Below, in pieces: positions 2,310-33,383 of a stretch of DNA of 64,000 nucleotides; positions within the stretch are counted from its first letter, which is position 1, and the number at the start of each line of letters is the position of its first letter. A program made the position numbers and the translations under genes. A model generated the notes under the pieces. The model saw only the letters and a list, made by a program, of their open reading frames with translations. It did not search any database and was not told the DNA's origin. Origin of the DNA: a virus; IMG/VR virus record IMGVR_UViG_3300037069_000769, positions 38,322 to 102,321 of that record; one strand, 5' to 3'.

Positions 2310-3387
2310 CCTTAGGCACGCTCAACGCAAGATCATCATCGTAAAGGCCGCTACTTCCGGTATGCGGTTAATGCTGGAAGATGCGTTTCAGGATCAGCTT
2401 CAGAGATTCATTCGGGCATGGCACGTTCGGCTTAGTCGTCACCTTGAAAGTGTTGAGTACTTCAAACGTGCTGTGACCGATGCTCGAATCCTTAAAGCTA
2501 AGAGTACCTCAATAAGCGATCTTAGGCGTAGAGTTAATACCTCGTTCGCCTCTGATCTTGATCCGCTGCTGGAAGAGTTTCGACGCATTATTGTTACTGC
2601 TCCTATTGAGAAGTACTATGTGCGATGGGCACCTCTGGTGTTTAGCTTAGGGGCTGTGACAACTCTGAACACGTTTGGAGTACATGCTCGAAGTCCCGCT
2701 CTTGAGACTTTTCTTAGGGTGGGTGTTGTCTCCAAGGCGTCGGGGGGCGAAGATTTTACGTTTGAGTTGAGTGATGCTGCGATTATCCATGCCTTAGAGA
2801 GTCGTGGTATTATCGTAGGTGCGGGCTTAACTCACGACATTATCGAGGATGCTCGAAGCTTAATCCGAGACAAGGTGTACTTGGGAGGCTCGGATGTTGC
2901 TGACATTGCTGAGGAGCTGGCTTCTGCCCACGCTATAGCTGACTGGCGTGCTTTGTCTATCGCTAGAACTGAGACGCAGGCCGCGTTCAACCTTGCATCG
3001 TATCGGATGTTTGAGCGGTCAGGCGTACAGAAACAGTTCTGGGTCACAGTTGGAGATAACCGGGTAAGACCTCAGCACGTAGCTAATGAGGAAGCCGGAG
3101 CAGTTCAGATAGGTGTACCTTTTCCTAGCGGTCAGCTTCATCCGGGAGACGGGCCACTATCTGTTAATTGTAGATGCAGCCTTCTCCCTGACTTGAGTGA
3201 TCCGTCGATCTTGTTGAACCCTTGGGATGGGAAGTCTGGACCGTTCTTATCTACGGATGCTGGAGCAACCTTGCCGGCTGTTCGACGATTTAGTAAGAGA
3301 TTGTCAATTCCGCATGGTATCGCTCCGGGAGTGTCAGACGCCCGAGTTGACTTGGCAGATGAAGAGTTACTCTTTCCTGAAGAGTGA
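2245..3387 (+). CDS. Minor head protein, SPP1 gp7 / Mu F family
   Basis: 380 aa. The C-terminal half carries the family pattern: IARTETQAAFN near residue 238, W-x-T-x2-D-x-R-x-R-x2-H near 270, and a HPGDGPLSVNCRCSL stretch near 300-313 with the typical paired cysteines. These proteins associate with the portal and sit inside the head. The start overlaps the end of the portal gene; no strong Shine-Dalgarno is visible there, so a start slightly downstream remains possible. A strong hairpin terminator follows the stop. Confidence 0.8.
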   Translation: MVKNLSNPPSLLSLPTVELENSLRHAQRKIIIVKAATSGMRLMLEDAFQDQLQRFIRAWHVRLSRHLESVEYFKRAVTDARILKAKSTSISDLRRRVNTSFASDLDPLLEEFRRIIVTAPIEKYYVRWAPLVFSLGAVTTLNTFGVHARSPALETFLRVGVVSKASGGEDFTFELSDAAIIHALESRGIIVGAGLTHDIIEDARSLIRDKVYLGGSDVADIAEELASAHAIADWRALSIARTETQAAFNLASYRMFERSGVQKQFWVTVGDNRVRPQHVANEEAGAVQIGVPFPSGQLHPGDGPLSVNCRCSLLPDLSDPSILLNPWDGKSGPFLSTDAGATLPAVRRFSKRLSIPHGIAPGVSDARVDLADEELLFPEE

Positions 3388-3409
3388 TACCTGTTAATAA
3401 GATACGAAT

Positions 3410-3460
3410 TGTCAGCCCCCTTAAAGATTTTTTAGGCGGGGGTTGACAGTTCCTTTTTTA
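3410..3460 (+). terminator. Rho-independent terminator after the head genes
   Basis: TGTCAGCCCCC pairs with GGGGGTTGACA (one G-U pair) across a loop of about 17 bases and is followed by TTCCTTTTTT. The 3' arm also contains TTGACA, see the finding on terminator/promoter overlap. Confidence 0.75.
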
Positions 3461-3518
3461 CAGTGTAGACTGGGTGAATTGCGGCAGTGGTGGTTGGTAC
3501 TTAGTTTCACATTCCTTT

Positions 3519-22329: not shown

Positions 22330-24846
22330 ATGGGTTCCGAAGTAAGTCAATATCTGTACAGTTACGCCATCCAGCCTTCGAGAGATTGGAGGTACGACTA
22401 CGCACTTGATATTCCGTTGTTAATTGCTCCCCGCAATAATACGAATATGTGCGTAGAAAATATCGACTGGCTGCTTGACGGCACTCCGTTTGAGGAAGGT
22501 GGGAACAGCGGTATTGACTTGGTGTGGACTTCAGTAACGGGAGCGGAGTATTACATCCTTCAGTGGTGTAACAACTCTAGCTTCCGTGGGCCTACGTTAC
22601 GAGCCCTGCAAGTTGCTGACTCCGGCAACCTGTACACAACCTACACGCTGAAGTATATCACCGATGTATGGTACGGTGAGACCATCTATTGGCGGGTGAT
22701 TGCGTATAACACTCACGGTGGAGTTGGAGCTAAGTCGGATACTTGGCAGGCCACTTACGACTGTCCCGGAGGTAACAAGTCTAAGCAGCCTCAAAAGCCG
22801 AGCAACAACGACAGTCAAATCTGTGACAAGTTCGGAGTTCGGATTACTCTGGACGGTCCTGAGCATATGATGTGCTGCGATAAGCAGATGTACACACTGA
22901 ATGCTCAGTACTCGTGCACCGCTGATGATGGGGCACCGATCACAATTTATGCTGTGAACTATGCGATCGCTCAGGGATCGGTAGGCGGCGTATCAATCAT
23001 TCAGCAGAATGACAAGTTAGTAGTCGTCGAGATTGCGGCCACAGCTACTAACAGCTTTACCCTGACTGCCTCTATTACGTTCCAAGTCACTACTGACGAA
23101 GGGACTAAGTTTTTTACGTGCACCGGGCACAAGAAGATTTACACAGACTGTCTGACAGGTAAGGCCAGTGAAAAACCTTGGCTGAAGCTTGCGTATTACC
23201 CTTTGCCCGGCGTGGTGTTCTACACCGATCCATTCTACTCGGGAGATATGGTAGGCACGGACGACACGATGGACCCCGGTCTAGCAGTTCCGGGTATTCT
23301 TGGTCAGGCTCCTTACTGCGTTTCAAATATCCATGACGGGCTTCTTGCCAGTCTTGGGCAGAATGGGGCATACTCTGTTGACCTGATTGCCGTCGGTCCA
23401 GTAATTGAGATCAATCGAACCTACAATTACTTCTATTACGATAATGGAGGGTGCTCCAGCGGCATCCCTATCGGAGAACTCACGTATCAGATCAATGAGG
23501 CCCGCGTTCATATTCCGGTAGGATGTGGTCTGTGGTACGATGCTGAGTACGGGCTCCGTGCTGACAAACGTATGGCCGGTCGAGGATTGGGTTGGGGCTC
23601 AGACGCTTGGGGAGCTAGTACGGATCATCGGAGAGACTGTCAGTTAGGCATTCACACTTGTGGAGGATTTTTCGGGTTTAATACCTACCTAGGTGGTCCC
23701 GATGGAGCTTGCGATGGGTGTCCTCCGGGAACCTCTCCCCAAGATTTCGGTATCGGCGAAGCATTGTTTCCGATTGCAAGCGAGTTGATCGATAACGTAT
23801 TTCTGGGTAACACTCCCGCACTTCCCAACACTGATCCCGTATCTGCTAGCGGCGGTCCTATTGTCATGGGATGGACTGCGGCCTCAATGGGCTCGCTGGA
23901 TAGTACTTGGTGTGGGTCCGGATACGTTCTTGCCCTCAATTACGACTGCTCTTTGAAGGTTACTGCTGGTGCGGGTTGGGCAAATCAAACCGCTCTTGGA
24001 GTAGATACCGACCATCTTGCGGGCAGAGGTCTTCTCACTCAGATAGACGAGCTTTGTGATAAACTGCAAGTTGACTTAGGTTGCGGTTTGGCCCTTGATG
24101 GTAATCAGATTGTCATAAACGGCTCAGACCTTGGAGGTGCGGGCATCGCAGCGGGAAGTGGGTGCTCGTTAAGTGTTATCACCGGATGTGGTACTTACAT
24201 CGATCCAGATACGCACGCTGTCACGTTTAATGGCTCTGACGTAGCTGGAAACGGTCTGGTTGTTGGGGGAACGGGGTGCTCTCTTGATGTGAATCCCGGT
24301 TGCGGTATCTACATTTCAGCCGATCAAGTTACCGTCAAACGTGATGACCTTATTGGGAATGGGTTGAAAGCTGGATACGGTACGTGTTCGATTGACATTA
24401 ACTACGGTTGTGGTCTCACCTTGTCCTATGGTGCTCTGATCGTCAATAAGTCAACTTTGGCAGGCAAGGGGCTGCAAGCTGCGGGCTTATCTTCGTCCTG
24501 TGCTCTTGACGTGTTTGTGGGATGCCACCTCACTATTGAGACCGATAACAGTATTGGGGTAAGTACTGACGACGGCTTGTGTGGTGACGGTCTTACAAAT
24601 GGAACTAGCGGTTCCTGTGAGAACATTAATATCAATCCCGGATGTGGTTTGAAGATCAGTGGAGGCACGGGAACGGGCGGAGCTGTAATGGTAGATAACT
24701 CTGCTCTTGCCGGTGCCCACCTTGTAACCTCAGGAACTTGTGCTCTTGCTGTGAATGTTACTTCCCAAACTGTAGTTACGGGAGTAACCTGTAATGGTGA
24801 TGGGACGATTACAGTAACTACCGCAACGGTAAATGTCGTGGTGTGA
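22330..24846 (+). CDS. Tail-tip / receptor-binding protein with Cys-paired tandem repeats
   Basis: 838 aa. Residues about 50-140 look like a fibronectin type III domain (SVTGAEYYILQW...TIYWRVIAYNTHGG). From about residue 580 the protein is built of tandem units of 35-40 aa with a GCG or GCH turn (near bases 24080, 24184, 24298, 24406, 24520, 24640), a short strand pair, and SxLAGxGL plus CxLxV. Each unit carries two cysteines. This resembles a repetitive fibre shaft or an adhesin. The position after the distal-tail gene makes a receptor-binding role likely. Confidence 0.65.
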   Translation: MGSEVSQYLYSYAIQPSRDWRYDYALDIPLLIAPRNNTNMCVENIDWLLDGTPFEEGGNSGIDLVWTSVTGAEYYILQWCNNSSFRGPTLRALQVADSGNLYTTYTLKYITDVWYGETIYWRVIAYNTHGGVGAKSDTWQATYDCPGGNKSKQPQKPSNNDSQICDKFGVRITLDGPEHMMCCDKQMYTLNAQYSCTADDGAPITIYAVNYAIAQGSVGGVSIIQQNDKLVVVEIAATATNSFTLTASITFQVTTDEGTKFFTCTGHKKIYTDCLTGKASEKPWLKLAYYPLPGVVFYTDPFYSGDMVGTDDTMDPGLAVPGILGQAPYCVSNIHDGLLASLGQNGAYSVDLIAVGPVIEINRTYNYFYYDNGGCSSGIPIGELTYQINEARVHIPVGCGLWYDAEYGLRADKRMAGRGLGWGSDAWGASTDHRRDCQLGIHTCGGFFGFNTYLGGPDGACDGCPPGTSPQDFGIGEALFPIASELIDNVFLGNTPALPNTDPVSASGGPIVMGWTAASMGSLDSTWCGSGYVLALNYDCSLKVTAGAGWANQTALGVDTDHLAGRGLLTQIDELCDKLQVDLGCGLALDGNQIVINGSDLGGAGIAAGSGCSLSVITGCGTYIDPDTHAVTFNGSDVAGNGLVVGGTGCSLDVNPGCGIYISADQVTVKRDDLIGNGLKAGYGTCSIDINYGCGLTLSYGALIVNKSTLAGKGLQAAGLSSSCALDVFVGCHLTIETDNSIGVSTDDGLCGDGLTNGTSGSCENININPGCGLKISGGTGTGGAVMVDNSALAGAHLVTSGTCALAVNVTSQTVVTGVTCNGDGTITVTTATVNVVV

Positions 24847-24877
24847 CCTAGCGGGATCACCTCAAATGTGCTACAAT

Positions 24878-24912
24878 ACCCTGAGTCTCATTTGAGGCTT
24901 GGGGTTTTTCTT
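24878..24912 (+). terminator. Rho-independent terminator after the tail genes
   Basis: ACCCTGAGTCTC pairs with GAGGCTTGGGGT over an ATTT loop (a two-base mismatch inside) and runs into TTTTTCTTTT. A second overlapping repeat, CCTCAAATG with CATTTGAGG (24860-24898), is also present. Confidence 0.7.
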
Positions 24913-24913
24913 T

Positions 24914-24927
24914 TGCAAACGTTTGCA
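24914..24927. repeat. Palindrome copy 10
   Basis: Exact copy between the terminator and the ATG at 24940, 12 bases before it. Confidence 0.95.
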
Positions 24928-24939
24928 CGGAGTTTAGGT

Positions 24940-25362
24940 ATGCCATCAACAACTTTTGCTTGTGCTTGTTGCGGCGGGGGCGGCGGGGGATGTTCCGCAT
25001 GTACCGGAGTCGGGTCTACCTTAACGGTAACTATCAGCAATGCCCCAAACCTAGTTTGCGGCACGTGTAGTGTTATTACGACACCTCGTACTGTGACTAA
25101 GATTGCAGACTGCGAGTGGGAGTCATCTACGTTTAATACTTGCAGTAGGACTTGGAAGCTGGGGGTGATTGTCTTTACCTCTGCGGGAGTACGCCACGTC
25201 CGAGTATCTCTTACTTGCGTATCAGCGGGATGTTCTGATCTGATCTCGTGGACAACTCCGGCTCCTAATGCGTGTCCTCCTCAATCCGGCATTCCGGTAG
25301 ATGGTGGCGGTGGGGGCTCGGCCGCTTGCGACTTCAGTGCTAGCACGGCAGCCGTTGCTTAA
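24940..25362 (+). CDS. Cys/Gly-rich tail-region protein
   Basis: 140 aa from ATG 24940. Starts with ACACCGGGGGGCSACTG, has about twelve cysteines, and ends in a Gly run and Ala/Ser tail. The body is short beta strands. The Cys richness links it to the preceding repeat protein; it may be an extracellular disulphide-rich tail cap or an exported protein, although no signal peptide is visible. Confidence 0.6.
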   Translation: MPSTTFACACCGGGGGGCSACTGVGSTLTVTISNAPNLVCGTCSVITTPRTVTKIADCEWESSTFNTCSRTWKLGVIVFTSAGVRHVRVSLTCVSAGCSDLISWTTPAPNACPPQSGIPVDGGGGGSAACDFSASTAAVA

Positions 25363-25380
25363 ACTTTCTCATATTTACTA

Positions 25381-25409
25381 TTGACACCATGTCAATATAT
25401 CGTTATAAT
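25381..25409 (+). promoter_or_regulatory. Sigma70-type promoter for the accessory block
   Basis: TTGACA (25381-25386), 17-base spacer, TATAAT (25404-25409). Both hexamers are perfect consensus. It lies after the tail operon and before a run of small genes. Confidence 0.85.
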
Positions 25410-25457
25410 AAACTAACGTTTACACCGTTGGGGGAAAGTATATACATTACTCAACAT

Positions 25458-25471
25458 TGCAAACGTTTTCA
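25458..25471. repeat. Degenerate palindrome (TGCAAACGTTTTCA)
   Basis: One mismatch from the 14-mer (G to T in the right half). Lies between the promoter at 25381 and the first small gene. Confidence 0.7.
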
Positions 25472-25494
25472 CAAATCTACTAAGAATACCCGAT

Positions 25495-25707
25495 ATGACA
25501 CAAGAAAAACACAAAACGGGCGGTGATTCTGGGTTGCCCGAACCTTTGCCAAGGGTGTACGTCATTCTTCTGAATACCAAAGCAGGCCCGGCTGTTCGGG
25601 AAATGCTGCGTCGGGAATGGAACGAGCAAGTAGCGGGCTCTCCTATCTCTGGCATTCCTTTGGTGATACTCGGGCCGGGAGTAGAATCGGTGGAGGTACT
25701 TCCCTGA
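25495..25707 (+). CDS. Small hypothetical protein
   Basis: 70 aa, first gene after the consensus promoter. Contains LPRVYVILLNTKAGPAV and SGIPLVILGPGVESVEVLP, short strands around a helix. Weak Shine-Dalgarno. No family recognised. Confidence 0.5.
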   Translation: MTQEKHKTGGDSGLPEPLPRVYVILLNTKAGPAVREMLRREWNEQVAGSPISGIPLVILGPGVESVEVLP

Positions 25708-25751
25708 AATCTGCTTTCGTAATCTCGGTCCTGAAGTGAGAACGTTTGAAA

Positions 25752-25994
25752 ATGTTTACTACCCTTGATCCTAGTAGTACCTACAAACCCCATCCTGACG
25801 GAATCTCAGTAATTTCTGGGGATGGGGTTTTGGTTGCCCGAATTGCTTGGTGGTCTGATGATCCGGTAAGAGACGGTATAGGTGAGGCCCGAACTGTTGT
25901 AGCTTGGTATCACAAACGCGGAATTGACGTTACCCGTATTGTACTTGATAGATCGGGTAATGAGCTATTTAGGTGCAGTGGGGAAGACCTATGA
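25752..25994 (+). CDS. Small hypothetical protein
   Basis: 80 aa. Strand-turn-strand start (DGISVISGDGVLVARIAWW) and a helix region; looks like a small alpha/beta domain. The half palindrome AACGTTTGAAAA lies directly before the ATG. Overlaps the next start by four bases. Confidence 0.55.
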   Translation: MFTTLDPSSTYKPHPDGISVISGDGVLVARIAWWSDDPVRDGIGEARTVVAWYHKRGIDVTRIVLDRSGNELFRCSGEDL

Positions 25995-26230
25995 CAGATA
26001 TTTCTGATGTGGCCCGACTCTCTGACATTGAGAAGTGCTTTCTCCGTCGGCCTGTGAAAGATTTGCAAGCGTTTGCAAAAGAGCAGGGGTTCACTGTTCG
26101 CATCGTAGCTGTGAATGGCTATAGATGTGTGGTGACTCAAGGCTTCAACCCTAACCGAGTAAACATCGGTGTTGGGTCTTTGCCCGGAGAACTCGACGGC
26201 CAGATCACTAGCTTTGAAGGGGTTGGGTGA
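25991..26230 (+). CDS. Small hypothetical protein
   Basis: 79 aa from ATG 25991 with GGGGAAG upstream. Helical N-terminus and a strand region FTVRIVAVNGYRCVVTQGF. A degenerate palindrome at 26064 reads LQAFAK in frame. Shares an overlap with the next start. Confidence 0.55.
   Translation: MTDISDVARLSDIEKCFLRRPVKDLQAFAKEQGFTVRIVAVNGYRCVVTQGFNPNRVNIGVGSLPGELDGQITSFEGVG
26064..26077. repeat. Degenerate palindrome inside a gene
   Basis: TGCAAGCGTTTGCA: one mismatch (A to G) from the 14-mer, in frame as L-Q-A-F-A-K. Confidence 0.7.
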
Positions 26231-26556
26231 TGAGTAACACTCTGAGTATTGATTTTCTCAAGCGACTTCTTATGGCTAATCAACTTGGGATCAGACTTGA
26301 GCGGATGGATGGCCATAGGCGGTTGCTGTACTCTGTCACCGATTACCCCGGACCCTGCGATGAGGTCAGCTTTGACGAGATGTACCTGCTGAAGTCCGGA
26401 CGGCATGCTCCCATGAAGGAATACGGGTCTCCTTCTGATGCTCTTGACAAAATTGATGCTTGTCTGAAAGATTTGAGCATGCCACCCCTTCTTGAGCAGT
26501 TTCACGATACTTGGGCCGGAGATTGGGCCTTAGCTTGGGGTATAGCCGATGAGTGA
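26230..26556 (+). CDS. Small hypothetical protein
   Basis: 108 aa. Acidic to neutral, helical, with DFLKRLLMANQLGIRLERMDGHRRLLYSV. No family recognised. Overlaps the next start by eight bases. Confidence 0.55.
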   Translation: MSNTLSIDFLKRLLMANQLGIRLERMDGHRRLLYSVTDYPGPCDEVSFDEMYLLKSGRHAPMKEYGSPSDALDKIDACLKDLSMPPLLEQFHDTWAGDWALAWGIADE

Positions 26557-26866
26557 TCCTGATTCAATTATTGTCCCGAAAGCTTTGGGAGAAGCCGTTG
26601 TTAGGTTTACCCGAGCCCGCGAAGTGGCCGAGACTGCACGGGAACTCCGTCTGGCCTTTCGGGACTGTTGGAGTATGTGGTTCAAATGGTTCCGACGGCG
26701 AGAGTTTGAGAGACGCAAGCAGCGTTTGAAGGCGGCATGTCAACGTATGTCGGCTTTAATAACCTCTGCGTATATTGACTCGGACCCCGAGGTAGATGCT
26801 GCTCTACGGGATGATTTAACCCGTATCTTGCAAGACGTTGAAGCGGAGTTCTTTCATGGCAAGTGA
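26549..26866 (+). CDS. Small helical hypothetical protein
   Basis: 105 aa, almost wholly helical with a basic middle (WFKWFRRREFERRKQRLKAACQRM) and an acidic end. Could bind nucleic acid, but there is no recognised motif. Confidence 0.55.
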   Translation: MSDPDSIIVPKALGEAVVRFTRAREVAETARELRLAFRDCWSMWFKWFRRREFERRKQRLKAACQRMSALITSAYIDSDPEVDAALRDDLTRILQDVEAEFFHGK

Positions 26867-27056
26867 TCCCTCTGAGGGGTTATTCGGAGAAGATCGGAAA
26901 CCTGTTATGGTAAAGATATGGGGCAAATGGGTTTTGGTTTCGCCCGAATTGTGTCGTACGGCTGTCTGCCAATACCGCAATTGCATGCAGGCCGGACTTG
27001 AGTGGTGGGACTTCTCAGTACTTTCAACTGTTCTTAACCTCTTGCTGCACGGTTGA
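26856..27056 (+). CDS. Small hypothetical protein
   Basis: 66 aa from ATG 26856, overlapping the previous gene by 11 bases, with GGAG upstream. Contains KIWGKWVLVSPELCRTAVCQYRNC with three cysteines; function unknown. Confidence 0.5.
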   Translation: MASDPSEGLFGEDRKPVMVKIWGKWVLVSPELCRTAVCQYRNCMQAGLEWWDFSVLSTVLNLLLHG

Positions 27057-27116
27057 TCTGAAATGCGATACTTGTAGTACACGACTCCGATTGCCCTAAG
27101 TGTAAGGGAGAGTAAT

Positions 27117-27359
27117 ATGGGAGATTTTCCCCGAAATGTTGATGCTCGAACTAAGCCGATTGAGTCCTATGAGATAGCTCAATGGCACCCACTTCCTGAC
27201 GGTAAGGGTAAGCCAACCGCTGTGTGCTTCATCCTTAATGTTAAGGGTGAACCCCCGAAGGCTATGCGGATGAAGTCACGTCGAGCAGTTGACGAGCTTA
27301 TTGAAGCTTTGATCCTGCACCGTGATTCTGTTTTCCCCGAACCTGAGAAGAAGGTTTGA
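27117..27359 (+). CDS. Small hypothetical protein
   Basis: 80 aa, ATG preceded by GGGAG. A two-strand core (VCFILNVKGEPPKAMRMKSRRAVDELIEALILHRD) with a helix resembles small phage proteins with a single alpha/beta fold. No function recognised. Confidence 0.6.
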   Translation: MGDFPRNVDARTKPIESYEIAQWHPLPDGKGKPTAVCFILNVKGEPPKAMRMKSRRAVDELIEALILHRDSVFPEPEKKV

Positions 27360-27370
27360 CCCTTTTCGAT

Positions 27371-27384
27371 TGCAAACGTTTGCA
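27371..27384. repeat. Palindrome copy 11
   Basis: Exact copy 11 bases after a stop codon and 22 bases before the ATG at 27407. Confidence 0.95.
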
Positions 27385-27406
27385 GTCTTTAGTTGGAGAA
27401 TGTGAG

Positions 27407-27727
27407 ATGAGGTTCGGTCGAATCTACAAGCCTTACATCCGTCGGGTGCTCGGAGAGATAGTTGAGGGTAAATTCTCTACTGTTGGAGCACTGACGGATA
27501 GGTTTGATAGTCGGGGTAAACCCACCGTTGCTGAGCTTGAGAGTTGGTACGTCTACCATTACGTGACCCGATTCAGTTTGATGCCCGAATCCCCAAAAAC
27601 CGCCGCAGCCTTTGCTGAGGCTGTCAGACAGGCCCTGAAAAAATTCCGGGAAACTCCCATTGCGGACAGTTATACCATGTTGTATAATACATACTCGGAA
27701 TTTCGGGATCGGTTTCCGAACATTTGA
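27407..27727 (+). CDS. Small helical hypothetical protein
   Basis: 106 aa from ATG 27407 with TTGGAGAA upstream. Helical, with KAAAFAEAVRQALKKF-type segment; no family recognised. Its 3' part contains a promoter-like sequence at 27660-27688. Confidence 0.55.
   Translation: MRFGRIYKPYIRRVLGEIVEGKFSTVGALTDRFDSRGKPTVAELESWYVYHYVTRFSLMPESPKTAAAFAEAVRQALKKFRETPIADSYTMLYNTYSEFRDRFPNI
27660..27688 (+). promoter_or_regulatory. Possible internal promoter
   Basis: TTGCGG, 17 bases, TATAAT preceded by TG (extended -10). It lies inside the 27407 gene and would serve the genes from 27742. The -35 is only partly consensus. Confidence 0.4.
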
Positions 27728-27741
27728 TAGGAGAGTGTGCC

Positions 27742-27972
27742 ATGTCCGAATCTAAGATTCCTCAAGTCGGCGATAAGTTCTATCCGGGATTTGAGGATGA
27801 GTATCTCGATCCCCCGAAACCTGAAACTCAGTTGGTAAGGATTGCCAAAATTGGGCAGATGATTGAGATGGACGGTCATGAGGGTCGTGCTGTCTTCGTT
27901 GAAGATCAAGGTTGGTATGACTGCTTTTGGAGTACGAAACTTAAGCAGTTTGTCGCAGTTCTTGAGACGTAA
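27742..27972 (+). CDS. Small hypothetical protein
   Basis: 76 aa, ATG with TAGGAGAG upstream. VGDKFYPGFEDEYLDPPKPETQLVRIAKIG and MIEMDGHEGRAVFVEDQGWYDCF suggest a small beta barrel. No family recognised. Confidence 0.55.
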   Translation: MSESKIPQVGDKFYPGFEDEYLDPPKPETQLVRIAKIGQMIEMDGHEGRAVFVEDQGWYDCFWSTKLKQFVAVLET

Positions 27973-27992
27973 CTTTAGCTATTGAGGGTATC

Positions 27993-28214
27993 ATGGTTGA
28001 GAAGATTCAAGTCGATGCGTACAAGACGGCTGATGGGAAAGTGTTCAACGATTCGCAGGAAGCGAAGGATCACGAGGATGTGTTCCTGCTGACTCGATTT
28101 TGCGAGATACATTCGCAAAGCAACCCATGTCCTGATGATCCTACCGGCCTTGCTGATTGGTTGCTTGAGCATGCCAAGGAGTTGCACTCCCTGCTCTCAA
28201 CCATAAAGCCCTGA
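27993..28214 (+). CDS. Small hypothetical protein
   Basis: 73 aa, ATG with GAGGG upstream. AYKTADGKVFNDSQEAKDHEDVFLL is a pattern seen in many small phage proteins of unknown role (a short beta hairpin with a helix). Confidence 0.55.
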   Translation: MVEKIQVDAYKTADGKVFNDSQEAKDHEDVFLLTRFCEIHSQSNPCPDDPTGLADWLLEHAKELHSLLSTIKP

Positions 28215-28227
28215 CTTTGGAGGTAGG

Positions 28228-28590
28228 ATGAGTCGTGAAGTATTTGTTCAGTTGATGCAGGAGATGGCCGATCTTACGAAGCCGGCATGTGCGTCTTGTC
28301 GAGTACCTCATGCTTGCTGTGATGGGATGTACTGCGGCATTGCGATTGAGTACGCTAAGAATGTGTGGGGCGTAGCTCTTGAGCCTACAGGTCACCCCGA
28401 TCTTCCTCTGATGGGTGAGACTGGCTGTACTGCTCCACCCCACCTCAGACCTATTTGTACTCTTCATGCTTGCAGTATCGCGGGCATAGGAGCTTCCAGC
28501 GATCCTAAGTGGGATGATCGGTACTATCAACTGCGTGATAAGATCATGGAAACGTATGTTGCCCTCGAAGAAATGGGTGACATGGTGTAG
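28228..28590 (+). CDS. Cys-rich small protein, possible metal or Fe-S site
   Basis: 120 aa, ATG with TTTGGAGG upstream. CASCRVPHACCDGMYC and later GCTAPPHLRPICTLHAC give eight cysteines in an arrangement that could hold zinc or an iron-sulphur cluster. Similar proteins occur in other phages without known function. Confidence 0.55.
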   Translation: MSREVFVQLMQEMADLTKPACASCRVPHACCDGMYCGIAIEYAKNVWGVALEPTGHPDLPLMGETGCTAPPHLRPICTLHACSIAGIGASSDPKWDDRYYQLRDKIMETYVALEEMGDMV

Positions 28591-28597
28591 CTTAGTT

Positions 28598-28696
28598 GCC
28601 CCGGTCCCATGAAAGCTGTTGGGGAGGTATCGCTTAGCCAGTTGACGCCATCAGCAGTATTTGGAAATGGCATGGGTTCGAGTCCCAGCCGGGGCA
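28598..28696 (+). tRNA. tRNA-like element with abnormal middle (probable pseudo-tRNA)
   Basis: A perfect 7-bp acceptor stem (GCCCCGG 28598-28604 with CCGGGGC 28689-28695) plus discriminator A, and a T arm ATGGG-TTCGAGT-CCCAG (one mismatched pair). The span is 99 nt, and the 67 nt between acceptor and T arm do not give a 5-bp anticodon stem with a 7-nt loop; a GCCAT/ATGGC pair with a 14-nt loop is the best stem. It may be a decayed tRNA, an insertion-bearing tRNA, or a tRNA mimic. No amino acid can be assigned. Confidence 0.45.
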
Positions 28697-28700
28697 TTTT

Positions 28701-28714
28701 TGCAAACGTTTGCA
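28701..28714. repeat. Palindrome copy 12
   Basis: Exact copy four bases after the tRNA-like element and 12 bases before the macro-domain ATG. Confidence 0.95.
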
Positions 28715-28726
28715 CGAAAGGGAGAT

Positions 28727-29179
28727 ATGAACGTTCAATACAAGAAGGGCGACCTTCTCGAAGCTACTGAGGACATCATTGCTCATGGCTGTAACTGTGT
28801 GGGCATAATGGGAGCTGGGGTTGCCAGAGTTATCAGTGATCGATGGCCTGTGGTGTTTCCGGCTTACTCGAAGGCTTGCAATGCTGGACTGTTCCAGTTG
28901 GGAACGTGTCAGTTGTTGCAGGTGTCCATTCCGTTTCCAGTCCCTACTCGGGGTATGAGGATTGCCTACGTGGCGAATTTGGGAACTCAGCATGCTCCCG
29001 GCCCAGACTTCAGATTGTCGGCCCTGCGGACGGCTTTGGATAACTTGGTTCTCCGTGTTGGGCGTGAACGTGTAGCCATCCCTAAGATTGGGGCGGGGTT
29101 AGGCGGAGGAAATTGGCACGAGATCGAGAGGGTTCTCTTTGACACCCCTCTGAACTTTACAGTCTATGTCTTGGAGTAG
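28727..29179 (+). CDS. Macro domain protein (ADP-ribose binding)
   Basis: 150 aa, a single macro domain. ATG 28727 has AAGGGAGAT upstream. Family signs: YKKGDLLEATEDIIAHGCN at the N-terminus with the Asn that contacts the distal ribose, GIMGAGVARVI (first phosphate loop), and IPKIGAGLGGGNW (second loop). Poa1p/ALC1-like macro domains remove or bind ADP-ribose, and DarG-type macro antitoxins reverse DNA ADP-ribosylation. In a phage this suggests handling of NAD-derived signals or reversal of ADP-ribosyl damage. Which substrate it uses is not visible. Confidence 0.85.
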   Translation: MNVQYKKGDLLEATEDIIAHGCNCVGIMGAGVARVISDRWPVVFPAYSKACNAGLFQLGTCQLLQVSIPFPVPTRGMRIAYVANLGTQHAPGPDFRLSALRTALDNLVLRVGRERVAIPKIGAGLGGGNWHEIERVLFDTPLNFTVYVLE

Positions 29180-29181
29180 CC

Positions 29182-29418
29182 ATGCGTAAGTATTTGAAAT
29201 TTATCGATGCTGTGCGGACTACGGCGTATGGTGTGTCTTTTTGCATACTTGCTACGGTCTGCTACAGCATGATGTATCGATTGGGAAGTTTGGAATCTCG
29301 GGTGCACCAACTTGAGGATGCCAAGTATCAGCAGTTTCTCAAGGAGGAGATGGAGAAAGTTCCCGGTCCTATGCTACTGCCTCCAAAGCGTGGACGCGAT
29401 CCTCTAGCTCGCAGGTAG
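29182..29418 (+). CDS. Small single-pass membrane protein
   Basis: 78 aa, two bases after the macro gene. One transmembrane helix at about residues 13-31 (AYGVSFCILATVCYSMMY) then a short coiled coil and a Pro/Arg-rich tail. Function unknown. Confidence 0.6.
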   Translation: MRKYLKFIDAVRTTAYGVSFCILATVCYSMMYRLGSLESRVHQLEDAKYQQFLKEEMEKVPGPMLLPPKRGRDPLARR

Positions 29419-29421
29419 ACC

Positions 29422-29718
29422 GTGCGGAGATTTGTCGGTAAACCTCGATTCAGTAATTGCTGGATGACTTGTGCTTGCCTATTTCTGGCAGGACGATTAC
29501 GAGGTGTTGTTATCATTTTTCCAGCAGGTCAAGTAATGCCTCATTTGATTGGCATAACCCGTAGGGGTAAGTTGATTCACTTGATTCACTGTCGTGATCC
29601 TTACTGTGATTGTTGGAACTACATCTTTTGGGGAAGACTTCAAGTTTTTTCACCCAAGTTGTTTGATCGTCGTAGAGGGTGTCCTTATTATGTGTTAGGA
29701 AGACTATGCCTGATATGA
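29422..29718 (+). CDS. Small basic hypothetical protein
   Basis: 98 aa from GTG 29422. Hydrophobic and basic (ACLFLAGRLRGVVIIFPAGQ, LIHLIHCRDPYCDCW) with paired cysteines. Overlaps the next gene by 13 bases. The weak start keeps confidence moderate. Confidence 0.45.
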   Translation: MRRFVGKPRFSNCWMTCACLFLAGRLRGVVIIFPAGQVMPHLIGITRRGKLIHLIHCRDPYCDCWNYIFWGRLQVFSPKLFDRRRGCPYYVLGRLCLI

Positions 29719-29930
29719 CGATCAACAATTCGAGCATTCAGCGTAGGGCTTTCTCTTTTGAGTATACGGGCAATGTTGACAGTGAGCCTACTGCGATGCG
29801 GTGGGAGCATTGGATGGAAGATGTGATGAAGTTCATTGACGGTATCGAACCTAAGTGTTTGGTGAATGTCATTGAGCATGGCCATGTCGGGAAACACATC
29901 ATTATCGTTTGGTATTGGAGAGTGCTGTGA
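29706..29930 (+). CDS. Small hypothetical protein
   Basis: 74 aa from ATG 29706 with TAGGAAG upstream. AFSFEYTGNVDSEPTAMRWEHWMEDVMKFID and VIEHGHVGKHIIIVWYW read as a strand-helix-strand domain; no family recognised. Confidence 0.55.
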   Translation: MPDMTINNSSIQRRAFSFEYTGNVDSEPTAMRWEHWMEDVMKFIDGIEPKCLVNVIEHGHVGKHIIIVWYWRVL

Positions 29931-30154
29931 TCCCTCTGACAGGATTTCATCGACAAATGCCTGAGTTACGGATGACCGAGGATGAAGAGAATCGATTGAT
30001 GGTTCGTAAGGTCTCCGGTGGGGTACTCATTAAGAATAACCGAGCTAGGTGCGTTTGTCGTCAGAGTGCAAAGTCTCGTCGAGATATTCCTCTGTTGGAC
30101 CGTCGGGCCGAAAAGAAACGAGAACGTCAAGCACGCCGTCGAAATAGGTCTTGA
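29927..30154 (+). CDS. Small basic hypothetical protein
   Basis: 75 aa from GTG 29927 with GGAGAG upstream, overlapping the previous stop. The C-terminal third is strongly basic (AEKKRERQARRRNRS), compatible with nucleic acid binding. No family recognised. Confidence 0.5.
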   Translation: MIPLTGFHRQMPELRMTEDEENRLMVRKVSGGVLIKNNRARCVCRQSAKSRRDIPLLDRRAEKKRERQARRRNRS

Positions 30155-30179
30155 CAGTTGTTCATTTGAGCGGTATAAT
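30151..30179 (+). promoter_or_regulatory. Sigma70-type promoter before a non-coding stretch
   Basis: TTGACA (30151-30156), 17 bases, TATAAT (30174-30179): perfect consensus. It overlaps the stop of the preceding gene and faces about 250 bases without a convincing gene. Confidence 0.85.
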
Positions 30180-30185
30180 CCAATA

Positions 30186-30434
30186 GCAACGACCGTGCCA
30201 ATCCGGTTGGGATGTTTACCCTCAAGACCGACAATGGAGGGAGAGTTAGTGATCTTTGCTACATAGGGTCCATTCGGAGTGTTTCCGCATAACTCGCAGC
30301 CTCGATTGGTTACTTAGGCAGGTAGGTAAGGCAGGGTAACGGTTAAGATGGTCTAACGCTCCTGTGATTGCACTGGGTTGTAGTCAGCGATCCAGCCCTA
30401 TACTTGTCGAGTTGACTTCTGTAAGGAGAATGAA
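30186..30434 (+). ncRNA. Candidate leader or non-coding RNA
   Basis: Between the promoter and GTG 30435 no gene is supported. Short hairpins follow one another: CCAA/TTGG near 30200, CCCTC/GAGGG near 30222-30244, CGGA/TCCG near 30270-30285, GTTA/TAAC near 30342-30357, CTGG/CCAG near 30373-30395. It may be a long 5' leader of the 30435 gene or a separate RNA. No known RNA family was recognised and the stems are short. Confidence 0.4.
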
Positions 30435-30632
30435 GTGGGTGGTTCGGTAACGTACGATGTGTACACGTATCGCATGGGCAAATTTTGGCTGTGCGATAGT
30501 TTCGAGAGTGAGGAGATGAATAAGACTCCGGAACTGCTCGCACAGATCAACGATCCTACGTTACGTCATCGAGGACGGTGGCGGGTGGTGAAACGTCAGG
30601 GTAAGAAGGCTCGGGCATTCCTGCCTGCGTAG
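30435..30632 (+). CDS. Small hypothetical protein
   Basis: 65 aa from GTG 30435, AAGGAG upstream with six bases spacing. Begins GGSVTYDVYTYRMGKFWLCDSF and has a basic end. Under the 30151 promoter. No family recognised. Confidence 0.5.
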   Translation: MGGSVTYDVYTYRMGKFWLCDSFESEEMNKTPELLAQINDPTLRHRGRWRVVKRQGKKARAFLPA

Positions 30633-30645
30633 TTCTTACCTTGTC

Positions 30646-30715
30646 TAAGTCGTAGCTCAAACAGGCAGAGCGTCGGAGAATTCCGAGGTTGTGGGTTCAA
30701 ATCCCACCGGCTTAG
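30646..30715 (+). tRNA. tRNA-like gene with shortened anticodon loop
   Basis: A full cloverleaf except for the anticodon loop: acceptor TAAGTCG/CGGCTTA, D stem GCTC/GAGC with a GG-bearing loop, anticodon stem TCGGA/TCCGA, T arm GTGGG-TTCAAAT-CCCAC, discriminator G. The anticodon loop is GAAT, four bases instead of seven, and lacks U33; reading a 4-bp stem gives a six-base loop AGAATT. Total length is 70 nt. GAA (Phe) is the only familiar triplet, but charging and decoding by this loop are doubtful. Confidence 0.6.
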
Positions 30716-30718
30716 GTT

Positions 30719-30732
30719 TGCAAACGTTTGCA
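30719..30732. repeat. Palindrome copy 13
   Basis: Exact copy three bases after the tRNA-like gene and 16 bases before the ATG at 30749. Confidence 0.95.
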
Positions 30733-30748
30733 AAGGTGAGTTCCAAGA

Positions 30749-31204
30749 ATGTCTGACGAATACATCAGTATCAAAGCTGCTTGTAAACTTGCAGGCGTAT
30801 CCCAAGGCACACTATACTTAGAGATCGATCGAGGTAATCTGAAAGCTCTGAAAGCTACTGTCGGTCTTAACAAATATAGACGCACACAGTATCGAATCCT
30901 CCGATCTGATTTTGAGGTATGGGTCAACTCTTACAGACTTACCCGACCGTCTACGAATGCGGCGGGTGTTTGTGTATTCTGCGGTAAGGCTTGTTCAACC
31001 GCAGTTACCAGTTGCGATACTTGTCCCTCTCAGGAAATCATTGCTAAGGGCACTGCTGAAGCTCGGGCAGAGTGGGACGCGGTTACTGAGTTGGGAAGAC
31101 GGGCATCCGGAAAACCTGTTGAGTTTACCTTGCCTCGATTTATTCCTCGCACAAGACGTGAGAGGGATATTGTCCATAACCTAAGTCGTGAGGCAACCGG
31201 TTGA
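30749..31204 (+). CDS. MerR/excisionase-type HTH protein with zinc-like Cys motif
   Basis: 151 aa. Residues 3-60 (YISIKAACKLAGVSQGTLYLEIDRG, then RRTQYRILRSDFEVWV) are the helix-turn-helix DNA-binding unit of the excisionase/HTH_17 type. Residues about 73-92 hold CVFCGKACSTAVTSCDTC, four or five cysteines suited to zinc. The C-terminus is basic. It could be a phage regulator. Palindrome copy 13 directly upstream makes it a candidate for autoregulation, but MerR-type proteins usually prefer other operator shapes. Confidence 0.7.
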   Translation: MSDEYISIKAACKLAGVSQGTLYLEIDRGNLKALKATVGLNKYRRTQYRILRSDFEVWVNSYRLTRPSTNAAGVCVFCGKACSTAVTSCDTCPSQEIIAKGTAEARAEWDAVTELGRRASGKPVEFTLPRFIPRTRRERDIVHNLSREATG

Positions 31205-31692
31205 AGATTTCCCTGTTGACATTAGGGCCGGGTGATTGCGGTATCCGAAGATTCTTTTGCAAAGAGGATCGGATATACACTGAAGAGACTGTGCCCTTTC
31301 AAGTACTTCGATGGGATGATGTAAGATGCGTGCTGTGGATGGCTGATGGCACAATTATTACGGATATTCCGTCTCGACAGGTTCGAGTAGTTCCAAACGA
31401 GGAGTTTGAGGATGTCCTCTCCGACTTCAGCTTCATCCGATCCGAAGTTGCCAAGGGAGACCGTAACCGCAAGGCTGTACGAGCAAAAAGCAGACTCCGG
31501 GTATTCCCTGATCCACGAAGGGAGGTGCCTGATATGGGGCACCCTCCTCGGATTGTGTGTTGGAGTAATCGAATGTTCTTGCTTTACGATACTCTCTATT
31601 GGATGGAGGGCTTTGTAGATTATCGTGAGATTAAGGACATGTGCTGGATGCCCACCGAAACTCAACCCGATGCGAGGGACCGATTGCCGTGA
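31201..31692 (+). CDS. Hypothetical protein
   Basis: 163 aa from TTG 31201 overlapping the previous stop (TTGA), with GAGG upstream. Two similar halves: FQVLRWDDVRCVLWMADGTII and YDTLYWMEGFVDYREIKDMCWM, a possible duplicated beta-rich unit. No family recognised. Confidence 0.55.
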   Translation: MKISLLTLGPGDCGIRRFFCKEDRIYTEETVPFQVLRWDDVRCVLWMADGTIITDIPSRQVRVVPNEEFEDVLSDFSFIRSEVAKGDRNRKAVRAKSRLRVFPDPRREVPDMGHPPRIVCWSNRMFLLYDTLYWMEGFVDYREIKDMCWMPTETQPDARDRLP

Positions 31693-31871
31693 TTGAGTTA
31701 AAGATTTGTTCGGTGATTGTGACTGCCTTGCTTGCCTTGCTCGTGAGAAGTATCTGCCTCCAGCAACGCATCTCAATGTGGGAGTGTTTGATTGATGCTC
31801 TCGAAGACACCTATGGTTGGGTGATTCGGTGGAAGATACGATTTCGTAGGTTTAGGGAGCGTAGAAGGTAA
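31689..31871 (+). CDS. Small membrane protein
   Basis: 60 aa from GTG 31689 with GAGGGA upstream. Residues 5-23 are a transmembrane helix (ICSVIVTALLALLVRSI); the end is very basic (RWKIRFRRFRERRR). Overlaps both neighbours by a few bases. Function unknown. Confidence 0.5.
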   Translation: MIELKICSVIVTALLALLVRSICLQQRISMWECLIDALEDTYGWVIRWKIRFRRFRERRR

Positions 31872-32467
31872 TGACGCATGAACTGGTGATCGCTCACTAT
31901 GCAGAGAGTTTGGATTGGGTTAGAGGTCAGGAGTGGGCTTCCCCTCAAATCTACTCTAAAGGGCAGACCGTAGCGACACCCTTGCCGATTGTTGATCTTC
32001 TTCCAAATGTGGGCCGAGAGGCTCACACTTACCTGCATTACCTGATTACCCGATACGACAGTTTGCCTGACTATGTTGGGTTCTGTCAGGGCAATCCCTT
32101 CGATCATTGCAGAACGTTTATCCCTGAGCTGAGAGCCGCGTTCAGAAGGCCGAAACCGTTTAGTGGTTTTGGGTGGCAGTTACACTGCGATCCAAGAGGG
32201 TGTCCTGAGCATTGTGGGCTCCCTCTCGGGTTTTACTCGGATCGACTATTTGCCCGAAAGTTTTCAGAATTTGACTTTCAAATTGGGGCACAGTTCGTAG
32301 TCAGTGCCGAGAGAGTTAAGCGTCATCCTAAGTCATTTTACGAATGGCTGTATGTGTTTACCCGCGAGGATGAGGTAATGCCGTGGGTACTTGAACGACT
32401 GTGGGCAGTAATCTTCGATGGTTGTACGAACCTACGGAGACACGCTATTCCGGGAGACGGACCTTGA
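31871..32467 (+). CDS. DUF3431 protein
   Basis: 198 aa. ELVIAHYAESLDWV near the start, NVGREAHTYLHYLITRYDSLPDYVGFCQGNPFDHC in the middle and the Cys-containing CDPRGCPEHCGLP match the DUF3431 pattern (iyNKG, NvGREaHTYL, FlQG-PfdH). The family has a glycosyltransferase-like fold and is often next to glycan genes. Two more glycosyltransferases follow in this phage. The precise reaction is unknown. Confidence 0.75.
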   Translation: MTHELVIAHYAESLDWVRGQEWASPQIYSKGQTVATPLPIVDLLPNVGREAHTYLHYLITRYDSLPDYVGFCQGNPFDHCRTFIPELRAAFRRPKPFSGFGWQLHCDPRGCPEHCGLPLGFYSDRLFARKFSEFDFQIGAQFVVSAERVKRHPKSFYEWLYVFTREDEVMPWVLERLWAVIFDGCTNLRRHAIPGDGP

Positions 32468-32589
32468 GTTGGGATCAAGCTTGGTGGTGGAGTATTCGAG
32501 GATTTGCCGCCGCAATTACGTGTGTACTGATAGTTATCGGCCTGATCCTCACGTCTTGTAGTGAGTACCCCTATGACGATCAGATGTGA
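32464..32589 (+). CDS. Very small lipoprotein-like membrane peptide
   Basis: 41 aa from TTG 32464 overlapping the previous stop. A hydrophobic segment (AAITCVLIVIGLILTSC) ends in a lipobox LTSC, leaving a ten-residue acidic end. Size recalls Rz1-like outer-membrane lipoproteins, but there is no proline-rich part and no Rz partner. Could also be an entry-exclusion or sensor peptide. Confidence 0.45.
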   Translation: MSWDQAWWWSIRGFAAAITCVLIVIGLILTSCSEYPYDDQM

Positions 32590-32593
32590 CCTA

Positions 32594-32622
32594 TTGACAA
32601 GTTATTGTCAGTATGGTACAAT
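32594..32622 (+). promoter_or_regulatory. Sigma70-type promoter of the structured RNA
   Basis: TTGACA (32594-32599), 17 bases, TACAAT (32617-32622). Start of transcription is expected near 32629-32631, about ten bases before the first long stem. Confidence 0.85.
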
Positions 32623-32628
32623 AGGTAA

Positions 32629-32812
32629 ATGAAATTGAATCTCGGCCCCTAGAACAGACTCTTAGACCGGGAGACTGTAAGCTGCGGGGCGGCTTTTCGG
32701 GGGAAGCTAGGGGCCGAGTGCTTCTAAAGCTGCTTACTACTTATCAAGTCGGAAGGGCCTCAATCTCCTCTGGACCCCGTTCCGCTACTTATAGTAGTAA
32801 GCAGTTTTCTTT
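32629..32812 (+). ncRNA. Novel structured non-coding RNA, two-domain
   Basis: No gene is supported here. Domain 1 is closed by a perfect 12-bp stem, CTCGGCCCCTAG (32641-32652) with CTAGGGGCCGAG (32707-32718), enclosing a hairpin ACAGACTC/GAGACTGT (one A-A mismatch). Domain 2 is a long hairpin: CTGCTTACTACT (32730-32741) with AGTAGTAAGCAG (32793-32804), continuing inside as AAGT/ACTT, CGGAA/TTCCG and GGG/CCC, and extended at its base to 16 bp. It runs into TTTTCTTTT, so it also works as a terminator. A consensus promoter stands just upstream. I recognise no known RNA family. Confidence 0.7.
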
Positions 32813-32825
32813 TGTTGATGGAAAA

Positions 32826-32973
32826 ACCTTGGTGCAATGCCAAGGTGGTCTCTCTTGAGATCGAGTGATGTGCACTCCGGGGCGAACCCGGACCCCATTG
32901 TAATGGTGAGTAAAGTCCTCAGAATCCTTTGACTCATCGGGAGAGGCGTAACGCACCTGCCGACAAATCGGCA
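32826..32973 (+). ncRNA. Chain of hairpins downstream of the structured RNA
   Basis: Consecutive stems with small loops: ACCTTGG/CCAAGGT (32826-32846), GGTCTC/GAGATC (32847-32862), GAGTG/CACTC (32863-32877), TCCGGG/CCCGGA (32876-32892), TGAGT-AAAG/CTTT-ACTCA (32907-32936), TGCCGA/TCGGCA (32958-32973). The two middle ones overlap by two bases, so they may alternate. This could be a second RNA, a 3' part of the same transcript after read-through, or a long leader of the 33030 gene. Confidence 0.5.
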
Positions 32974-32983
32974 ACATCGCTTT

Positions 32984-32997
32984 TGCAAACGTTTGCA
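32984..32997. repeat. Palindrome copy 14
   Basis: Exact copy after the hairpin chain, 32 bases before the ATG at 33030. Confidence 0.95.
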
Positions 32998-33029
32998 ATT
33001 CCTCGCTCTCTATCTGAAAGTGTTCTCCC

Positions 33030-33350
33030 ATGAAGCAGGATTTCAAATCCAATCAGTTTAGTGATGTTAACGGTAACCCCGCAGGGGGTCAGACGTTCGG
33101 GCCGGGAGTTTGTGTTGCATGGCAAAACGGTCCTTTGGCCGTTGACGGGGAGCGTAAGGAACCTAACGGCTGCTTTGTTGAGACAATCATCGCGATTGCT
33201 ATTGATCGTTTGAACTTTTATGAGCAGAGCAAGTTTGCGAGTGATTACAACAAGTCAGCGTTGCATCACCTCCATTTGGCTATGGCGGCACTTGAGCAGC
33301 GAACAAAGGACCGCGAGGCTCGTGGCGTTGAAGGTACTCATAAGGTCTGA
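33030..33350 (+). CDS. Conserved small phage protein
   Basis: 106 aa. FGPGVCVAWQNGPLAVDGERKEPNGCFVETIIAIAIDRL, then a helix and AALEQRTKDREARGVEGTHKV. I know this pattern (short N-terminal loop, two long helices, VEGTH end) as widely conserved in unrelated phages. A helical hairpin of this kind could be compared with the Acb2/Tad1 anti-defence fold, but I cannot confirm that from sequence. Confidence 0.7.
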   Translation: MKQDFKSNQFSDVNGNPAGGQTFGPGVCVAWQNGPLAVDGERKEPNGCFVETIIAIAIDRLNFYEQSKFASDYNKSALHHLHLAMAALEQRTKDREARGVEGTHKV

Positions 33351-33383
33351 ACGATCAGTTGCTACCGTTTGAAAGGTTTGAGG

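Follow-up and report, generated by a model that had tools for sequence, protein, structure and literature searches.

Catalogues of phage non-coding RNAs lag far behind those of phage proteins, and roles are known for few of these RNAs. The tRNA cluster of phage T4 gives rise to stable RNAs of unknown function, and in Gram-positive bacteria there are regulatory RNAs with C-rich loops, in which the pyrimidine-rich apical loop can pair with ribosome-binding sites. Two other kinds concern bacterial immunity. The RNA anti-CRISPRs (Racrs) are reported to be small phage non-coding RNA genes that serve counter-defence by mimicking CRISPR repeats as solitary repeat units (PMC10651486), and cabRNA is reported to be a structured phage RNA, transcribed from the terminase genes, that activates CBASS and triggers defence (PMC10686824).

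The locus considered here lies in a window of 64,000 nucleotides, i.e., the whole stretch of DNA that was analysed, which forms the end of a virus contig that is 102 kb long and may be incomplete. In this window a stretch of ~185 nt without recognizable gene, located 3′ of a promoter and organized in two domains, constitutes a predicted non-coding RNA on the + strand (32628–32812, start and end being inferred), the prediction being based on its fold z and on ORFs devoid of a family match. We hold it to be just about probable that the stretch is a phage gene that stands alone and whose product, a structured non-coding RNA, would be made by the host polymerase and would act in trans.

Promoter and coding content

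The putative gene is preceded by a σ70-type promoter on the + strand (32594–32622) having the form TTGACA-17-TACAAT, with 11 of the 12 consensus positions matched, a 17-bp spacer and a −10 element extended by the TG ahead of it; the inverted repeat TGACAA-GTTA-TTGTCA is contained within it. The consensus promoter proposed by the first-pass annotation is thereby confirmed as a near-consensus one. The local consensus scan around the RNA yielded three sites vs 5.9 expected, which is not above chance. On the scale of the whole 102-kb contig, sites matching at least 10 of the 12 positions are 23 in number and all of them are on the + (coding) strand, so that the promoter set, taken as a whole, is not random. 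At least one of these 23, that at 3443, is perhaps no promoter; it overlaps a terminator-like hairpin (3405–3460) whose 3′ arm includes TTGACA. The distance separating the promoter at 32594 from the next ORF is 407 nt, the longest among the 18 promoters examined (2–255 nt for the other 17), and both this distance and the membership in the one-stranded set of 23 sites count in favor of a stand-alone RNA. The promoter-linked stretches at 30185 and 25414, with a fold z of +0.67 and −0.41, respectively, fold no better than their shuffles.

As to the coding potential, none of the small ORFs overlapping the RNA or just following it matches a PHROG family, and a 46-aa ORF running over the RNA on the + strand matched no phage record in a tblastn search. 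Judging from the sequence only, the interval combines the attributes of a stand-alone small RNA gene, namely a promoter of its own, the absence of a recognizable coding sequence and a predicted intrinsic terminator. Another apparent non-coding gap of the greedy ORF map (2310–3473) was discarded, its sequence reading as a gene with a terminator-like hairpin at the end, and for this reason the gaps of this map are not taken as evidence alone. A 62-aa ORF without a family match (32401–32589) lies just upstream of the promoter; it includes a hydrophobic stretch as well as the residues LTSC, which resemble a lipobox.

Predicted fold and search for relatives

In the predicted fold, domain 1 (32641–32718, + strand) is closed by a perfect 12-bp stem (32641–32652/32707–32718), whose arms CTCGGCCCCTAG and CTAGGGGCCGAG are 54 nt apart and enclose three hairpins that meet in a four-way junction. 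Domain 2 (32726–32812, + strand) is a predicted intrinsic terminator consisting of a second perfect 12-bp stem (32730–32741/32793–32804; arms CTGCTTACTACT and AGTAGTAAGCAG, 51 nt apart), inside which lie an imperfect helix and the loop UCAAUCUCCUCU, and after which comes TTTTCTTTT. Stem 2 directly abuts TTTTCTTTTG at its 3′ side, which gives the RNA a terminator-like end and substantiates the T-run terminator with which the second domain had been said to close.

Perfect 12-bp inverted repeats with loops of at most 80 nt occur four times in the window vs 0.05 expected from dinucleotide shuffles of the whole window, and two of the four are the neighboring stems of the RNA, both falling within 165 nt. 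The energy of the fold of 32628–32815 is −77.7 kcal/mol, the shuffles averaging −57.8 (z −4.46, with none of the 200 shuffles as good), and the pair probability is higher than 0.96 for nearly all the stem pairs, also when the transcript is made longer, the innermost pair of stem 2 being at 0.73. The earlier description of ~180 gene-free nucleotides arranged in two domains with perfect 12-bp stems is upheld by these stem counts and by the fold z; furthermore, the fact that stems so far above chance, a z of −4.46 and a terminator-like end are found between a promoter and the next gene argues for a stand-alone RNA. When corrected for GC, the fold energy at 32628 ranks 4th among the 2,555 contig windows of 188 nt; the site is among the most structured places of the contig, yet it is not alone, and that other places fold as well counts against a stand-alone RNA. 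According to the mechanism that we propose, the host RNA polymerase would initiate at the promoter at 32594 and yield ~185 nt, transcription would be halted by domain 2 and the U-run, and the compact RNA thus freed would be expected to resist RNases on account of its two closed domains.

A search of the window with Rfam 15 under strict conditions returned only the tRNA at 30646 as reaching the gathering threshold, and a permissive search of 32400–33100 gave weak matches, the best having E values of 6.7 and 9.1. The RNA thus has no match in Rfam 15, in line with the first-pass annotation, which had been unable to name a family for it. Likewise, no relative was obtained by blastn against phage and plasmid records, no homologue by the stem patterns tried in viral contigs and bacterial genomes, and no match by a covariance model of the RNA, be it in 26 loci or over the full length of 25 related records, this model being derived from one sequence, so that diverged relatives could escape it. 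Searches based on the neighboring genes gave one partial match for the Tad1-type gene described below, 16 loci, none with the RNA, for the DUF3431 gene and no matches for the genes at 33369 and 37165; bacterial genomes gave no relative of the capsid protein. Since no homologue was found in the collections searched, there is no covariation that would speak for or against the selection presumed by the first-pass annotation, and this lack of covariation is counted against a stand-alone RNA.

A few candidates were considered and rejected. Four exact matches in viral contigs were obtained with 19 nt taken from the domain 2 loop; they are not regarded as homologues, because in three of them the covariance model sees the loop only, without flanking stems, and because their other strand is possibly protein-coding (PEEIEA-like). 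A weak match in two relatives falls inside a glycosyltransferase gene and is attributed to chance. The identity with a bacterial Y RNA, the partner of Ro60/Rsr, was dropped because no TROVE domain is present in the contig and the RNA has no Rfam match, although the host could still encode a Ro/TROVE protein.

The accessory island and the Tad1-type gene

The RNA is located in an island of ~8.5 kb (24868–33350, + strand) lying between the genes at 22330 and 33369 (glycosyltransferase). Six related phage contigs, found through their capsid protein (71–78% identical) and of which the regions were fetched (two of the six, L034 and L035, being near-copies of each other), lack the whole island at the same place, as expected of the accessory region postulated earlier: the homologue of the 22330 gene is followed by that of the glycosyltransferase directly in four of the six and with one other ORF in between in the remaining two. 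The island comprises many small genes, a DarG-like macro-domain gene, a tRNA-like gene, an excisionase-like HTH gene, a DUF3431 gene, the RNA and a Tad1-type sponge gene; the DarG-like gene and the sponge gene are, respectively, the “macro-domain gene” and the “conserved small phage gene” to which the first-pass annotation had drawn attention.

The Tad1-type gene (33030–33350, + strand), which starts 218 nt after the end of the terminator, matches profile A2 with E 3.3e-27 and retains the conserved columns, including the C-terminal RGVEGT region of the solved Tad1 proteins; by this test it is a Tad1-type gene, and its product is predicted to be a sponge for signal molecules. The molecules that Tad1 proteins sequester are immune signals of Thoeris and CBASS (PMC12043709). 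The presence of the Tad1-type and DarG-like genes in the island speaks for a stand-alone RNA, the counter-defence neighborhood being an association only.

Between the RNA and the Tad1-type gene is a structured non-coding stretch (32816–33029, + strand; z −3.7), which contains at 32982 one copy of a genome-wide palindrome. Its hairpins at 32816–32929 include CCGGGGCGAACCCGG, resembling a tRNA T-arm, and no tRNA model matches there. The tRNA-like gene of the island (30645–30716) has good acceptor and T arms and a shortened anticodon arm with a predicted 4-nt loop (TCGGA-GAAT-TCCGA); ARAGORN could assign no anticodon to it, and it might mimic a tRNA or serve as a decoy.

Since the consensus scan found no further promoter with at least 9 of 12 matches between 32622 and 33030, the main rival of the stand-alone RNA is a cis-acting leader, in which the RNA would be the 5′ part of the Tad1-type gene mRNA and domain 2 a conditional terminator (attenuator) allowing partial read-through. 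This possibility, which we deem unlikely but worth serious consideration, gains from the position of the Tad1-type gene, downstream and on the same strand, from the structured nature of the intervening stretch and from a 7-codon ORF (MKLNLGP) that extends from the predicted transcription start as far as the last position of the 5′ arm of stem 1, an ORF that could be due to chance. What weighs against a leader is that both domains are predicted to be rigid and to fold independently, that the predicted folds contain no antiterminator, be the 5′ part masked or the transcript longer, and that the terminator and the gene are so far apart. Indeed, the predicted terminator hairpin persists when the first 28 or 37 nt are masked, as they would be under a translating ribosome, and this speaks against a simple leader-peptide attenuation. 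If true, the leader would be an example of phage control over a sponge gene.

The mosaic nature of the island, the other terminator-like long stems of the contig and the lack of a homologue of the RNA would also suit an ordinary cassette junction, in which the promoter of one imported module would stand ahead of a long-loop terminator and a hairpin, without any function at the RNA level. This we regard as improbable, because termination does not account for domain 1, which has no U-run after it, a strong promoter feeding only a terminator would make no sense as a mere junction and the stability of the fold is well beyond that of the shuffles. Finally, it is very improbable that the perfect 12-bp repeats, which are also palindromes of the DNA, are remnants of a small mobile element or protein-binding sites, given that they are single copy in the contig, that target-site duplications are not seen at their ends and that a promoter and a U-run suit an RNA.

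Some other structures of the contig can be recorded here. The 14-bp palindrome TGCAAACGTTTGCA is present in 44 exact copies in the 102-kb contig, about one per 2.3 kb, at gene junctions as well as in gene interiors (in the window, e.g., at 3517, 30717, 32982, 36017, 43736, 48638, 53113, 55249 and 62487), and its outer flanks are not conserved. The palindrome, which we take to resemble a LacI/PurR-type operator, is found in one of 14 related records (G013/L015, four copies in 11.4 kb), and its 18-bp form has no match in the window shuffles. A comparable genome-wide palindrome of 17 bp and unknown function is carried by Cluster O mycobacteriophages (PMC4351075). Near the left end of the contig and outside the window (contig 435–662, L059), the 9-mer TGTGCAAAC, which includes a half-site of the palindrome, forms a tandem array with 25 copies; array and palindromes suggest that a single DNA-binding protein has both arrayed and paired sites, in the manner of partition or silencing systems. 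A candidate for this binder is an 89-aa HTH protein (contig 23760–24029; L060 4260–4529) that has its own strong promoter and a sub-threshold match to the LacI-family HTH (E 0.003). After GC correction, no fold in the contig is stronger than the one near the tandem array at contig ~720–980 (L059), which has the perfect 16-bp stem TAGGCACTAGACGTAA, and at contig ~24490–24570 (L060 4990–5070) a perfect 15-bp stem, whose 48-nt loop contains AAGGAGG and ATG, is followed by TTTTTACTTTT; a start codon might be concealed in this stem, or the stem might function as a long-loop terminator.

Possible action and comparison with known systems

The first-pass annotation had spoken of a functional RNA, and a functional promoter-driven non-coding RNA is still the best reading of the anatomy, whereas the function itself is what we infer. 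A stand-alone RNA would probably act in trans in host takeover or in counter-defence, and two modes of action, each of them a tentative suggestion with rather low odds of being right, can be envisaged: the exposed C/U-rich loop of domain 2 may act through its complementarity to ribosome-binding sites, or domain 1 may present a decoy to an RNA-binding protein of the host. As regards the former, a duplex scan of the domain 2 loop in the window gave a mean of −10.1 kcal/mol at gene starts vs −8.9 inside genes; the strongest match is inside a gene and no clear specific target emerges among the gene starts of the window. This start-site bias is slight, as a pyrimidine-rich loop of this kind would give, and the case for ribosome-binding sites is weak. 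It is rather doubtful, though conceivable, that the two-domain RNA represents a new class of RNA counter-defence factor, which would mimic or sequester a nucleic-acid-binding part of the host immune system.

Structured RNAs of phages are a known kind, and the predicted RNA falls in no described family among those tested. At present, it is one orphan RNA with a putative role; nevertheless, a well-bounded predicted RNA gene that has no relatives in the collections searched and lies in an island of counter-defence type is a concrete candidate for an RNA directed against bacterial immunity.

Like the RNAs of the T4 tRNA cluster, it would be a small structured phage RNA near a tRNA gene, and unlike them it has no Rfam match, no sequence relation to them being shown. 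With the C-rich-loop RNAs of Gram-positive bacteria it shares a pyrimidine-rich apical loop, the difference being that no specific target stands out for it. It resembles the Racrs in being a putative small phage non-coding RNA gene, here beside protein genes of counter-defence type, and differs from them in that nothing repeat-like was recognized in it, as judged from its own sequence. Unlike cabRNA, the phage RNA has its own promoter and resides in an accessory island; likened without homology, both are structured phage RNAs tied to cyclic-nucleotide signaling, the tie being here the neighboring Tad1-type sponge.
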